From Limosilactobacillus reuteri (lineage in GTDB: Bacteria; Bacillota; Bacilli; Lactobacillales; Lactobacillaceae), in contig NZ_JAJGTZ010000026.1 of NCBI RefSeq assembly GCF_020784725.1, positions 1 to 64,000 of the forward strand: DNA of 64,000 bases, read 5' to 3'. The notes below the pieces were generated by a model, which was not told where the DNA came from, made no database searches, and saw only the letters and a list, made by a program, of their open reading frames with translations. The stretch's first letter is position 1, and the number at the start of each line of letters is the position of its first letter. Below, piece by piece: positions 20,778 through 59,926 of this stretch. The position numbers and the translations under genes were made by a program.

Positions 20778-20822
20778 AAGAGGGTGAGGAAAAACGAAAA
20801 AGTTTTTCCTCACCCTCTTAAT
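20778..20822. terminator. Strong bidirectional terminator
   Basis: An 18-bp perfect stem: AAGAGGGTGAGGAAAAAC (20778-20795) with its complement at 20802-20819, 6-base loop. It lies between the convergent DJ-1 and mprF genes and ends both. Confidence 0.9.
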
Positions 20823-24638: not shown

Positions 24639-24655
24639 TGTGAAGATTATTTAAG

Positions 24656-24800
24656 ATATCGTGGAAATCCTCGTAGGCTAGCTTCGCGTCGTAACTACAA
24701 GGCTTGAGCCTAAGTCCGAACGGTAATCAGCCCGTGCCGTGCTAATCACCGTTCTATCCTTAGCCCACCGCCTTGTCGAGAAAGTTAATTTCCACTCACT
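24656..24800. ncRNA. Structured intergenic element with five nested stems
   Basis: No gene in this stretch. Collinear complementary pairs nest one inside another: GTGGAAAT (24661) with ATTTCCAC (24788); CTCG (24670) with CGAG (24777); ACAAGGC (24697) with GCCTTGT (24770); CTAAG (24710) with CTTAG (24759); GAACGGT (24718) with ACCGTTC (24748). This gives one long interrupted stem. It also carries, inverted, the 17-mer found at 6899-6915. It may be a dispersed intergenic repeat, a small RNA, or a palindromic element without coding capacity; strand is unknown. Confidence 0.5.
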
Positions 24801-24805
24801 ATTTT

Positions 24806-25534
24806 TTACTTAATTTGTTTTAAAATTTGTTTAACGCTTTGGGTCTGAAATTCTTGTTCTGCTTGTGCTGATATTTCGTGGATTTGCTTAGCAGTCATGT
24901 TAGGATTCTTAGCCATTGCTGCTTGAACCTTTGATGTAACAAAAGCGCGTCCTTGTTCTGCGGCTTGTGCTTGTAGTTTGGTTCCTGTAGCAGATTTAGC
25001 AACTCTGGCAAGTTTAGTAGCTTGACTCGTTGTGAGTTTAACATACATTCGTGGATATTCTAACACATTAGTTCGCTTAACCAATGTATTGTTCATTCCT
25101 GACCATGCATATAGGACTTTATAAAAATTATTACGATATTGCCAACGTGTCTCAGTTGTTACGAGCCGAGGCGTAGTATCATTAGTCCATTTAATCCGAC
25201 TAGTGGTATATTCGTTTGCTTGGGTATGGTTAGGCGTTTTTTGTTTAACTTTGGTGTTATAAATATAAACATCATCATGGCCGCTTTTACCAACCGGTTG
25301 ATAAATTGCCAGGGGCATTGAGGAATTTGAAGCAGAGTAAATCCGCTTGGTGGTTGTTGTCGTAACTTTTTGCATTCCAAAATGGTGACTGTAGTTCAAT
25401 GTCATTAAAAGAGTCGAGCCTACAAAGGTAATTCCCGTGAGTGTGGCTAAAATGATTCGCAGGTTTTTTTGCTGAATAAACATCATGCAAGCAAAAAAGG
25501 CAATTGCTCCCAGAAAAGTTAAAATAATAACCAT
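24806..25534 (-). CDS. DUF4811 family membrane protein
   Basis: 242 residues, GGAGGGATG upstream of ATG. Two hydrophobic segments at residues 1-20 and about 28-50, then a Lys/Gln/Ala-rich soluble part likely outside the membrane. Lactobacilli often carry this family directly after a DHA2 MFS pump gene with a MerR regulator divergent, exactly as here. Its ATG overlaps the MFS stop by one base, so the two are translationally coupled. It may assist or stabilise the pump; function is unknown. Confidence 0.8.
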   Translation of the reverse strand: MVIILTFLGAIAFFACMMFIQQKNLRIILATLTGITFVGSTLLMTLNYSHHFGMQKVTTTTTKRIYSASNSSMPLAIYQPVGKSGHDDVYIYNTKVKQKTPNHTQANEYTTSRIKWTNDTTPRLVTTETRWQYRNNFYKVLYAWSGMNNTLVKRTNVLEYPRMYVKLTTSQATKLARVAKSATGTKLQAQAAEQGRAFVTSKVQAAMAKNPNMTAKQIHEISAQAEQEFQTQSVKQILKQIK

Positions 25535-27042
25535 TATTTCATCCCTCCTTTATCAGCTGAGTTTGCTATCTCCTCACTATCCAGCCGAATGTGAATTCCA
25601 TTACCATTTGTAACAAAGAATGTGAGGAATAAACCGATGAGTGAGAAGGCGATTGCAAACCAGAACGCTGCATGATAACCCATCAAAGTAGCATCAAACA
25701 TCTTTGCCTTATATTGCAAAGGAGATTGAGTAAGTAATGAATGAGCAGGGCGATTGCTATTGGTAATATTTGTCAAAACAGAGATCATGATTGCTGTTCC
25801 CACAGAAGTAGCAACTTGACGAATGGTGTTGTTAACAGCTGTACCGTGCGAGATTAAATTGTAAGGAAGAGAATTCATTCCCGCCGTAGTAACTGGCATC
25901 ATTACCATCGAAATACCAAACATCCGGACTGCATATAAGAAGACAATATAAATAGTTGGGGTATCACGAGTAATAAAGGCAAAAGGAATTGTTCCAACAG
26001 TTAAGATAAACATTCCTGTAAAGGCTAAGCGCTTAGCACCGTGACGGTCAAATAAGTTCCCAGTAATTGGACTCATAATTCCCATAAAAAGGGCCCCAAA
26101 TAAAAGGGTAAGACCTGAATGGAAGGCAGACATTCCGTGAATAATTTGAAGGTAAAGAGGGATGACGAATTCCACCCCAACCATGGCCATCATTACAATT
26201 GAACTAAGGATAGTTGCGAGGGAGAATTCTTTGCTTTCAAAGACTTTGAATTCAAGGAATGGGTCGTCTAGCTTGTTTTGACGCATGATTAGAATTACAA
26301 CTAAAATCGCCCCAATGATAATGGTTGAAAGAACAACTGGATCGGACCAACCTTTATCACCGACGCTTGAGAATCCATAAAGCATGCTTCCAAATCCTAA
26401 TGTTGAAATAACAACAGAAAGCCAGTCAAGATGCGGCTTTTTGTTAGGGATAACATTCTTAACTGCAAAAAAACTAACAATGATGACTAAAGCAGTGATT
26501 GGGGCAATCATTCCGAAAAGCCACCGCCAGCTATAACTATCGATAACCCACCCAGATAGAGCAGGACCGATTGCTGGTGCTAATCCAATAACTAAGCCAT
26601 TCACTCCCATCGCAGCTCCACGCTTTTCAGGAGGATAAACAGTCAGCATGATATTCTGCATTAAGGGCATGTTGATCCCTACTCCGACTGCTTGAATAAG
26701 ACGACCAGCTAATAGAACGGCAAATGATGGAGCAATCCATGCTAGAATTGTCCCAACTTCAAAGGTTGACATAGCAATGATAAAAAGACTTTTAGTATTA
26801 AAACGACTGGTTAGGTAGGCACTGACGGGGATCATAATCCCATTAACCATTAAGAAACCGGTAGTTAACCACTGAACGGTGGCTGTACTAATATTAAAAG
26901 CATCCATTAATGCTGGAAAGGCTGTTGAAAGAATAGTTTGGTTTAAAATGGTACAAAAAGCTCCAATTAATAAGACAAAGATCATTAAGGAACGATTATA
27001 AGTTTGACCATTAATATCAACAGGTTGTGGCTCTTGATTCAC
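25534..27042 (-). CDS. DHA2 family MFS efflux transporter
   Basis: 502 residues from GTG 27042, AAAGGAGGA 8 bases upstream. About 14 hydrophobic segments; motif C-like GPALSGWIVDSYSWRWLFG and the first-segment FCTILNQTILSTAFPALMDAF are typical of EmrB/QacA pumps. It probably exports toxic organic compounds using the proton gradient. Transcribed divergently from a MerR regulator, from a promoter overlapped by a large palindrome (27092-27132), so it is likely repressed until an inducing drug is sensed. Confidence 0.92.
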   Translation of the reverse strand: MNQEPQPVDINGQTYNRSLMIFVLLIGAFCTILNQTILSTAFPALMDAFNISTATVQWLTTGFLMVNGIMIPVSAYLTSRFNTKSLFIIAMSTFEVGTILAWIAPSFAVLLAGRLIQAVGVGINMPLMQNIMLTVYPPEKRGAAMGVNGLVIGLAPAIGPALSGWVIDSYSWRWLFGMIAPITALVIIVSFFAVKNVIPNKKPHLDWLSVVISTLGFGSMLYGFSSVGDKGWSDPVVLSTIIIGAILVVILIMRQNKLDDPFLEFKVFESKEFSLATILSSIVMMAMVGVEFVIPLYLQIIHGMSAFHSGLTLLFGALFMGIMSPITGNLFDRHGAKRLAFTGMFILTVGTIPFAFITRDTPTIYIVFLYAVRMFGISMVMMPVTTAGMNSLPYNLISHGTAVNNTIRQVATSVGTAIMISVLTNITNSNRPAHSLLTQSPLQYKAKMFDATLMGYHAAFWFAIAFSLIGLFLTFFVTNGNGIHIRLDSEEIANSADKGGMK

Positions 27043-27080: not shown

Positions 27081-27109
27081 ATAATAATACTATTTGATAT
27101 CTTTGTCAA
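27081..27109 (-). promoter_or_regulatory. Promoter of the MFS-DUF4811 operon
   Basis: On the minus strand TTGACA (plus 27104-27109), 17-bp spacer, TATTAT (plus 27081-27086). The -35 lies inside the 41-bp palindrome. Confidence 0.8.
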
Positions 27110-27132
27110 ATAATTTGACAAAGATATCAAAT
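27092..27132. promoter_or_regulatory. 41-bp perfect palindrome, probable MerR operator
   Basis: Two 20-base arms that are exact complements around a single A at 27112; the right arm begins ATTTGACAAAGATATCAAA. It overlaps the -35 boxes of the MFS promoter (minus) and of the regulator's own candidate promoter (plus; TTGACA 27115-27120, 18-bp spacer, TAATTT). This is the expected place for the dimeric MerR protein encoded 40 bp downstream to act on both genes. Confidence 0.75.
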
Positions 27133-27172
27133 TTTTGGTAATTTATGATTAAAACATACACTTTGGAGGAAA

Positions 27173-27622
27173 ATGATGGATCCGCTTTCTGGAAGAATTA
27201 GAAAAATAATCGCTAGTAAACAATTAAAAATTAGTATGAGTGAAGTGGCACGTGTAACTGGTGTCTCTACTAGTCAATTAAGATACTGGGAGAAAAAAGG
27301 TTACATTAAATCTGAACAAGATGAGCAGAATAAAAATCACTATTTTAGTTTTCCAACAATTTTTCAAGTATTAACGATTAAAGTATTTTTGGAGCAAGGC
27401 TTTACTTTAGCAATGGCTGTAAAAAAGGAACGTAAACGGCGCGAACTTCATAAGATTTTTACCCGTTTTATTACGGACGGCATCAAAGAGGTAGAACAAA
27501 CTGGGGAAGATAGTGGAGAAGTTAGGTTGGGCCCATTAGCTGAGGATCTCACAAAAGAAGTATATGCAGTGATTGATGGTGATAAGACTCGTCTTCGTAT
27601 TCGGGATCGGAAAGAAAATTAA
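27173..27622 (+). CDS. MerR family transcriptional regulator
   Basis: 149 residues, TTGGAGG upstream of two adjacent ATG codons (27173 or 27176). N-terminal MerR helix-turn-helix: MSEVARVTGVSTSQLRYWEKKGYI (about 20-43, motif split by Ser/Thr residues), then a HYFSFPTIFQVL segment. The C-terminal part (about 95-149) is short with no cysteines, so it senses an organic ligand rather than a metal through Cys. Divergent from the MFS pump, which it should control through the 41-bp palindrome. Confidence 0.88.
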   Translation: MMDPLSGRIRKIIASKQLKISMSEVARVTGVSTSQLRYWEKKGYIKSEQDEQNKNHYFSFPTIFQVLTIKVFLEQGFTLAMAVKKERKRRELHKIFTRFITDGIKEVEQTGEDSGEVRLGPLAEDLTKEVYAVIDGDKTRLRIRDRKEN

Positions 27623-27700: not shown

Positions 27701-28048
27701 TTGGCTACAACAGGTTTAAGTTATAGTGAGTTAAGCGACGATGCTAAAGAAGTTGCCCTTAATTCCTTTATTAATTTTTATGTTGATCAATATCGTAGGG
27801 GTAGTTTAGAGATCCTTAGCTCACAAGTATCTAATGAACTAATGGCTACAATTAATCAAATCTTGCGCGATAATGCTTTTATGGGTCATCAAGAATTAGT
27901 TAATGTAAGCACGCGGCTAAGTAAGCCAGCTTATCAAAAAATTTTAACCGCATTGACTAATGTTAAATTTCATGAAGATGGGGAACCGGTTGTTGATTGG
28001 ATGAAGGCTTGGGAACAAAAAGAGGAACAGTTACCAGAAGAAGATTAG
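27701..28048 (+). CDS. Small hypothetical protein
   Basis: 115 residues from TTG 27701 with AAAGGAAG upstream. Acidic, helical, no signal peptide or membrane segment; the end is Glu/Asp rich (KEEQLPEED). It begins ATTGLSYSELSDDAKEVAL. I do not recognise the family. It follows the MerR gene by 78 bp and is closed by its own terminator, so it may be transcribed separately or with merR. Confidence 0.65.
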   Translation: MATTGLSYSELSDDAKEVALNSFINFYVDQYRRGSLEILSSQVSNELMATINQILRDNAFMGHQELVNVSTRLSKPAYQKILTALTNVKFHEDGEPVVDWMKAWEQKEEQLPEED

Positions 28049-58750: not shown

Positions 58751-59926
58751 TTGGCAAAAAAATATCAGATAGAAATTCCTGACTCAGCATTTAAAAAGAC
58801 AGATTTCTCTACCAATGAAGAACTCTCTCTTAGTGTTAACCATAAGCAAATTAACATCCGTCCAATAAATGTGAGTGATCAACTACCTAAAATTAACATT
58901 TTCTGGTATGTGATTCCTTCAATTATTTTAGCTGCAATATTTTTAGCTTTTTTTAGCGCTAAAAAAATTAACACAGTCCCGATAACAGGTGATGATTATT
59001 CCATTGCCAATGGTGCTTTAATCTTAGGAGTATGTAGTGGAATTCTATCGTTTTTGATAACTTTTATTATTACTAAAATTCTCGGAAAAGGGCCTAGCAA
59101 AGATTTTCATTGGCGGAGTTTGCCAACAATTACGATTGCATGCGGCCTAATCATTGCATTTTCGCTATCGGCAATTTTTTGGCTGTTCGGTCAGATGTTT
59201 AAGGATGCGCGGTTTGATATTTATACAGCAACTGCTTTTATATTTGTGATTATTGCGGCAATAAACTATATTATGATTAATTTAGCGTTAACATTATCAT
59301 CGGGAGTTATCACCAATTTATTAACAATAATGATTATTGGTGGAATGCTTTTTTCAATGTTGACGAATTCTAAACGAGACTGGTGGCGTTATAATTTCAG
59401 TTTTTTAGGAACAGCGAAAAATTCCACAAGTCTGCAATTTAATATAACTTTGATTTTTACCGGATTGTTAATGATTGCTTTAGTTGATTACTTATTTGTA
59501 AATATTCAACGTCGGTATCACGGTTATAAAATTCAAGTATTGCGGTGGCTGTTAATTATGTTAGCTATCTGTATTGCTTCTATTGGCCTTTTTCCCAATA
59601 ATCCAGAATTTCATGTTTTACATGACCGAATTTCAATGTGGCTTGTGTATATTATGCTAATTCTGATTGTAGTTATTAGGTGGGTTCTACCTGAAGTTAC
59701 TAAACAATTTTTGGTGATTTCTTATACGATTGGAGCCGTAATGAGTATTGAATATATTGTTTTTAAGTTAACAAACTATCTTTCCTTAACAGCATTCGAA
59801 TTGTTTGAATTTGGCTTAGCCTTTTCTTGGTTGCTTTTATTACTACAAAATATTGAAAATCTCGCTCAATTTGGGCAAAACTTATTTGTAGTAAAACTCA
59901 AACCGGTAAAAGATGATACTAATTAA
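58751..59926 (+). CDS. Polytopic membrane protein with DUF998-like region
   Basis: 391 residues from TTG 58751, AGGTGA upstream. About 55 hydrophilic residues, then eight to ten hydrophobic segments. The segment RYNFSFLGTAKNSTSLQFNI with the following hydrophobic stretch resembles the DUF998 family of lactic acid bacteria. Function unknown. It lies 69 bp after rpoC, past the terminator, and converges on comC. No clear promoter was found in the short gap, so it may depend on read-through from rpoC. Confidence 0.72.
   Translation: MAKKYQIEIPDSAFKKTDFSTNEELSLSVNHKQINIRPINVSDQLPKINIFWYVIPSIILAAIFLAFFSAKKINTVPITGDDYSIANGALILGVCSGILSFLITFIITKILGKGPSKDFHWRSLPTITIACGLIIAFSLSAIFWLFGQMFKDARFDIYTATAFIFVIIAAINYIMINLALTLSSGVITNLLTIMIIGGMLFSMLTNSKRDWWRYNFSFLGTAKNSTSLQFNITLIFTGLLMIALVDYLFVNIQRRYHGYKIQVLRWLLIMLAICIASIGLFPNNPEFHVLHDRISMWLVYIMLILIVVIRWVLPEVTKQFLVISYTIGAVMSIEYIVFKLTNYLSLTAFELFEFGLAFSWLLLLLQNIENLAQFGQNLFVVKLKPVKDDTN

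Follow-up and report, generated by a model that had tools for sequence, protein, structure and literature searches.

Between the gene of a MerR-family regulator and a divergent gene pair for an efflux permease and a DUF4811 protein, the genome of Limosilactobacillus reuteri carries an unusually long perfect palindrome, and the question that this locus raises is which protein uses it and to what effect. In this study, we closely examined the palindrome within a stretch of 64,000 nucleotides (here named the window; contig NZ_JAJGTZ010000026.1 of assembly GCF_020784725.1) and in related loci of the order Lactobacillales. An initial annotation had described a 41-bp perfect palindrome with twenty pairs around one base, and exactly this was found: the arms 27092-27111 and 27113-27132 are complementary in 20 of 20 pairs about A27112 (ATTTGATATCTTTGTCAAAT-A-ATTTGACAAAGATATCAAAT). 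It is the longest perfect palindrome of the window with a 0- or 1-nt center, the runner-up having an arm of 10 (58948-58967). According to base frequencies, arms of at least 20 are expected 2.9e-7 times in 64 kb and about 9e-6 times in 2.0 Mb. Elsewhere in the window, an 18-bp perfect stem with a 6-nt loop (20778-20819) lies between convergent gene ends and is likely a bidirectional terminator.

Judged by its sequence and position, the palindrome is most likely the operator of the adjoining MerR-family protein. That it instead works as a hairpin in DNA or RNA, i.e., as a terminator, cruciform, or recombination site, is extremely improbable: although a terminator scan picks it out on either strand, each predicted start site lies downstream of it, so that neither promoter should transcribe it, and neither a second genome copy nor, around the operator, an Rfam hit reaching the gathering score was obtained. 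The merR-MFS intergenic region is single-copy in the genome, the second match being the palindrome pairing with its own opposite strand. The features of the locus are compiled in Table 1.

Table 1. Predicted features of the merR-MFS-DUF4811 locus (window positions)
Feature	Position	Strand	Basis
DUF4811 protein, 242 aa	24806..25534	-	Pfam
DHA2/EmrB-type MFS efflux permease, 502 aa, GTG start	25534..27042	-	NCBIfam, Pfam
-10 (TATTAT), MFS-DUF4811 promoter, spacer 17	27081..27086	-	promoter scan, conserved
Perfect palindrome, 41 bp, 20-bp arms + one central A	27092..27132		self-complementarity
Extended operator (putative), 33 bp, genus consensus GATATC-TTTGTCAAATAATTTGACAAA-GATANC	27096..27128		conservation
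Core operator (putative) TTGTCAA-N5-TTGACAA, 19 bp	27103..27121		conservation
-35 (TTGACA), MFS-DUF4811 promoter	27104..27109	-	promoter scan, conserved
-35 (TTGACA), merR promoter	27115..27120	+	inside palindrome, conserved
Weak -10 (GGTAAT), merR promoter, spacer 16	27137..27142	+	best match here
merR, MerR-family regulator, 149 aa (ATG 27173) or 148 aa (ATG 27176)	27173..27622	+	Pfam, frame

Both -35 boxes lie inside the palindrome, as had been claimed at the outset. The MFS promoter, then called optimal, does combine TTGACA and TATTAT at a normal 17-bp spacer but matches the consensus at 11 of 12 positions and is hence near-optimal. The left arm takes in 27092-27103, i.e., 12 of the 17 bp of its spacer. 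At the position of the weak merR -10, many relatives have TATAAT or TATACT.

We analyzed whether the site accompanies the regulator in other genomes and found a 19-bp core to be conserved throughout. A match to the regulator is present in 47 of 50 genomes of the genus, and the core with at most two mismatches was found upstream of merR at all 46 genus loci, a count that leaves out two duplicates of the window (L031 and L032), two second MerR copies with no site within two mismatches (L071 and L072), and L037, a joined-CDS record with no intergenic DNA. In L037, the coding sequences around merR follow one another directly on a single strand, which is likely an artefact, and such records are to be avoided in promoter studies. 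Family loci were restricted to the 30 best from 182 genomes with a MerR match, including 9 of the genus itself. Among the other 21 best-scoring loci, all 18 with a divergent MFS gene carry the core (at most two mismatches), and in the remaining 3, without the core, no MFS gene was seen.

A larger set, the best 80 of 478 loci, shares many genomes with the genus and family sets. A divergent MFS gene is present in 73 of these best 80 loci, 72 of which also have DUF4811, and the core occurs in 73 of 73 (63 exact, 9 with one mismatch, and 1 with two), whereas it is absent from 6 of the 7 loci without a divergent MFS gene. The seventh, L131 of Ligilactobacillus ruminis, has the merR match and an exact core with no divergent pump found alongside, which would fit autoregulation. 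In Levilactobacillus brevis CD0817 (L147), merR and an operator with one mismatch are present, and the MFS frame is only 157 codons long and ends close to an ORF that looks transposase-like by eye.

Across the order, DUF4811 was found in 34 of 148 genomes, of which 19 lie outside the family; of the 20 loci that were then read, 18 come from these 19 genomes. MerR, recognized by eye from its frame (RQLRYWE motif), is divergently encoded in 16 of these 18 loci of other families, and all 16 MerR-MFS loci carry the core (1 exact, 14 with one mismatch, 1 with two). The three of the 20 loci that have DUF4811 and no divergent MerR contain no core at two mismatches: L206 has none, L203 only a place with three mismatches, and L201, inside the family, has a MarR-like gene (again by eye) and no core. 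In L203, an MFS-DUF4811 locus with no MerR in the stretch read, the MFS gene is split into two overlapping frames. L207, also inside the family, has MerR and MFS genes, yet only sites with three mismatches.

Within the L. reuteri genome, the exact core has a single copy (Table 1). With up to two mismatches, the pattern occurs at 38 places in 2.0 Mb against 45 in a control; it is thus unenriched genome-wide, and no wider regulon is therefore claimed. The 38 places also give the level to be expected by chance for the cores counted above. Positions 27104-27120 fit the GlnR/TnrA box TGTNAN7TNACA, which is likewise unenriched (52 sites versus 49 for the reversed control). This fit is not independent of the promoters, because two back-to-back TTGACA boxes 5 bp apart create such a box. 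The informative feature of the putative core is therefore its conserved spacing and not the GlnR-box match itself. Use of the box by another regulator, e.g., GlnR, is scarcely credible despite that fit, since the core accompanies a divergent MerR gene and the only weak matches at E ≤10 were the window MerR and a MerR-type protein (268-codon frame). A search of the 99.96% complete genome gave no TnrA/GlnR-family protein over the cut-off, and GlnR was rejected as the binder.

The spacing of the promoters is conserved as well. Measured to the best -10 match, the MFS spacer is 17 bp long in 71 of the 73 MFS-bearing loci (best 80 of 478), at 62 of 64 genus and family sites, and at 15 of 16 order sites, while shuffled flanks reach this value in 25-27%, with 27% for the 73 loci. 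For merR, a spacer of 16-17 bp was found at 69 of 74 sites in the 80-locus set, at 57 of 64 genus and family sites, and at 16 of 16 order sites, compared to 43-49% for shuffled flanks, with 44% for the 74 sites. One dyad with a fixed 5-bp center therefore holds both -35 boxes, and the lasting feature of this predicted control region is that dyad, not the length of 41 bp.

Since both -35 boxes fall within the core and the spacer is 17 bp, versus the 19-20 bp of classical MerR activation, we consider it highly probable that the regulator represses the pump and itself through one dimeric site. From the observed site, its conservation, the promoter overlap, and the gene pairing, we infer binding, repression, and induction as follows. 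A MerR dimer would occupy the 19-bp core, in which the -35 hexamer of the MFS-DUF4811 promoter forms one half-site and that of the divergent merR promoter the other, and would shut RNA polymerase out of both promoters, resulting in repression of the pump and autorepression. In this lineage, further symmetric contacts may be made at the outer GATATC arms, by the wings or by two additional subunits, and cover a large part of the MFS spacer. The protein would be freed from the operator by an inducer, perhaps acting via the C-terminal beta-domain, and upon release the strong pump promoter with its 17-bp spacer should fire. Because the merR -10 is weak in this genome, we are less confident of autorepression than of pump repression. 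The early suggestion of a plain repressor thus gains from the anatomy, i.e., both -35 boxes inside the dyad and a 17-bp spacer conserved across several families, while repression itself is deduced from that anatomy.

Two modes of activation were weighed against repression. In the classical one, a MerR protein bound within an over-long spacer untwists the DNA upon drug binding. This would suit a MerR wHTH protein beside an efflux-type gene, a position that BmrR has as well, and the left arm does extend into the MFS spacer. We nevertheless regard it as very unlikely, because the core is centered between the two -35 boxes and outside the spacer, and because a spacer of 19-20 bp, called essential for MerR activators in a review (PMC9909328), is replaced by the 17 bp given above; the palindrome over both -35 boxes and the conserved 17-bp spacer argue for plain repression and against such a twist. 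In the other mode, MerR bound near -38 would recruit polymerase to the pump promoter in a class II-like manner. The inferred center of the core at about -38 of the MFS promoter agrees with this, and GlnR, which can act in this way from an upstream site, is described as activating as well as repressing (PMC6191146). A near-consensus -35 and -10 need no help, though, and the site holds the -35 itself and serves two promoters, which makes upstream activation just as improbable.

Since the core is common to many lactic acid bacteria, the locus holds a clear but fairly ordinary putative repressor site. The initial description of a dyad far beyond those usual for MerR proteins is apt for the variable outer arms only, while the conserved part of the putative operator is a dyad of 19 bp with the geometry of GlnR/TnrA sites. 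In a consensus built from 22 genus representatives that are less than 80% identical, a 33-bp extended operator emerges, with a left arm better conserved than the right. On each side, 13-16 of the 22 retain C/G at ±11 and G/C at ±16 (p 2.5e-6 to 2e-9 versus a 15% background, the rows being related and p only a guide). In the clade to which the window belongs, 5 of 10 loci have perfect 20-bp arms, in three versions (ATTTGA/TCAAAT, ATTCGA/TCGAAT, and ATCTGA/TCAGAT).

We read the outer arms as putative extra symmetric contacts in this lineage. Alternatively, they could be unbound and owe their symmetry to template switching in a quasi-palindrome, with only the 19-bp core being functional. The arms vary between clades, and pairs 17-18 are T.G mismatches in some species and T-A or C-G in others, as such mutation would allow; moreover, pairs 10-20 all match within their own arms at 5 of the 10 clade loci, whereas cross-pairing gave 8 of 88 (p 0.003 by Fisher test, on rows that are not independent). 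Against this, the positions ±11 and ±16 are kept on both sides, as contacts predict, and outer-pair covariation across the genus is weak: over 42 distinct sites, 6.6 of the pairs 10-20 were matched per locus versus 6.1 when cross-paired, and no single outer pair except pair 20 covaried convincingly. Taken together, a purely mutational origin of the arms is unlikely. At the window site, symmetry over d10-31 is unremarkable (13 of 22, z 0.96). In another family of the order (L189 and L190; also L198 and L199), the divergent promoters are near mirror images past the core, and 18 of 22 (L190) and 17 of 22 (L189) outer pairs at d10-31 are matched, both -10 regions included, with different letters.

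The regulator itself was characterized at the protein level. Of its two possible starts, ATG 27176 is better spaced from GGAGG (27165-27169), and several orthologues align from it. With 48.3 bits for MerR_1 (Pfam; cut-off 21.6), it belongs to the MerR superfamily, and the MerR match recurs in all 63 members of an alignment of the window protein with proteins from 62 of the 80 loci, L128 being left out for an internal stop codon. Having no cysteine, the window protein lacks the cysteine-based metal or redox sensing of metal and SoxR-type MerR proteins; 32 of the 63 rows are without cysteine, and the number of rows with cysteine in any one column is at most 6. In the predicted structure (pLDDT 88), the wHTH is joined by a short helix and, at the C terminus, by a beta-sheet of four strands. 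In NCBIfam, a choline regulator model came first and SoxR was level with TnrA, all far below the cut-off; with 28 bits for the TnrA model NF053740 (cut-off 140), the protein falls outside the full-length GlnR/TnrA family. Among solved structures, GlnR chains were best by sequence (7tea and 7tec), and 4r4e came fourth in a profile search. VIA comparison of the wHTH gave Z 11.6 for CueR (rmsd 2.4, 74 aligned), 10.3 for CvkR, 10.2 for GlnR (4r4e), 9.7 for SoxR, and 9.5 for BmrR. As CueR scores at least as high as GlnR, the fold does not single out GlnR. The C-terminal domain folded alone had no Foldseek match at E ≤0.001 and a best VIA Z of 4.1, a search that says little because the pLDDT of this model is 78. 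A 115-aa ORF with a TTG start (27701-28048), located after merR and before the large gene that follows (by eye, RNase J-like), had no match in Pfam or NCBIfam, and a relative of it is a coding piece in the joined-CDS record L037.

On the other side of the operator, the permease scored 368.4 bits for TIGR00711 (cut-off 230.2), placing it in the DHA2/EmrB group, and its partner scored 185.7 bits for PF16069 (DUF4811; cut-off 27). The first base of the DUF4811 gene is the last base of the MFS frame. A strongly folding element at 24640-24810 (RNA fold of 24640-24805 on the minus strand, z -5.5) is repeated genome-wide, with at least 26 matches including itself among 40 scored of 51 candidates and at least 20 other copies exceeding 80 bp at 76-96% identity; it had no convincing Rfam family and is possibly a miniature mobile repeat or a structured RNA. 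The L. reuteri transporter lr1584 is a possible candidate for the permease of the window. According to a review, lr1584 is a bile-tolerance transporter (PMC3872040). The same pairing of an EmrB-family MFS and DUF4811 as in the window forms part of the operon rmaX-llmg1210-llmg1211 of Lactococcus lactis, where export is described as lowering intracellular c-di-AMP (PMC6108528). That account places a MarR-type gene in the operon, names a tetR mutant for MdrT, and cites Listeria MdrT as an exporter of c-di-AMP and bile (PMC6108528), whereas the neighbor in the window is a divergent MerR gene. For Latilactobacillus sakei, one predicted network includes both a DUF4811 protein and a MerR regulator, and their locus tags are close to each other.

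The operator of the window was absent from the open-licence literature searched, in which nothing joined MerR with reuteri, efflux, and bile or with EmrB, Lactobacillus, and repressor; the combination of MerR, c-di-AMP, efflux, and Enterococcus led to a soil resistome only. In the part consulted of a regulon survey of lactic acid bacteria, MerR is among the larger families and such a regulon is not described (PMC3616900). The component parts of the locus are all of known kinds. Their combination provides a precise, testable putative operator for a pump family tied elsewhere to c-di-AMP and bile export, with the same kind of regulator beside this family in several Lactobacillales families. The locus is also of interest as a natural switch of the MerR superfamily that is expected to function without twisting of DNA, and its small C-terminal domain is a candidate sensor. 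A more far-reaching scheme is doubtful, namely, a subfamily of pure-repressor MerR proteins across several Lactobacillales families that would use a GlnR-like box, sense the substrate of the pump, possibly c-di-AMP or bile acids, through an undescribed C-terminal beta-domain, and thereby exert feedback on the EmrB-DUF4811 exporter.

Compared to known systems, the window protein has the wHTH fold in common with BmrR, CueR, SoxR, and other MerR activators. These are described as binding inside spacers of 19-20 bp (PMC9909328), whereas the window locus has a 17-bp spacer and a site that lies over the -35, not inside a long spacer as is typical of classical activators. The nitrogen regulators GlnR and TnrA of the Bacillota, also of the MerR superfamily, share with the window core the consensus box TGTNAN7TNACA (PMC6191146). 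For glnRA of B. subtilis, repression is reported to involve a GlnR site that overlaps the -35 (PMC6191146), and the window core also overlaps a -35; the window protein differs in its single target, the pump, and the absence of any nitrogen link seen. It also differs at the C terminus, where GlnR and TnrA have a tail responding to glutamine synthetase and the window protein has its predicted four-strand beta-sheet. CvkR is described as a MerR-type plain repressor of a type V-K CAST (PMC9938897) and is, like the window regulator, a small protein. Its structure 7xn2 ranked first in Foldseek (rmsd 12.7 over 131 columns), and VIA (Z 10.3) aligned 82 residues at rmsd 2.1, covering model residues 17-99 and leaving the C-terminal part unaligned. 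CvkR recognizes another motif (AnnACATnATGTnnT) at another target, and its C terminus ends in a helix, versus the predicted beta-sheet of the window regulator.
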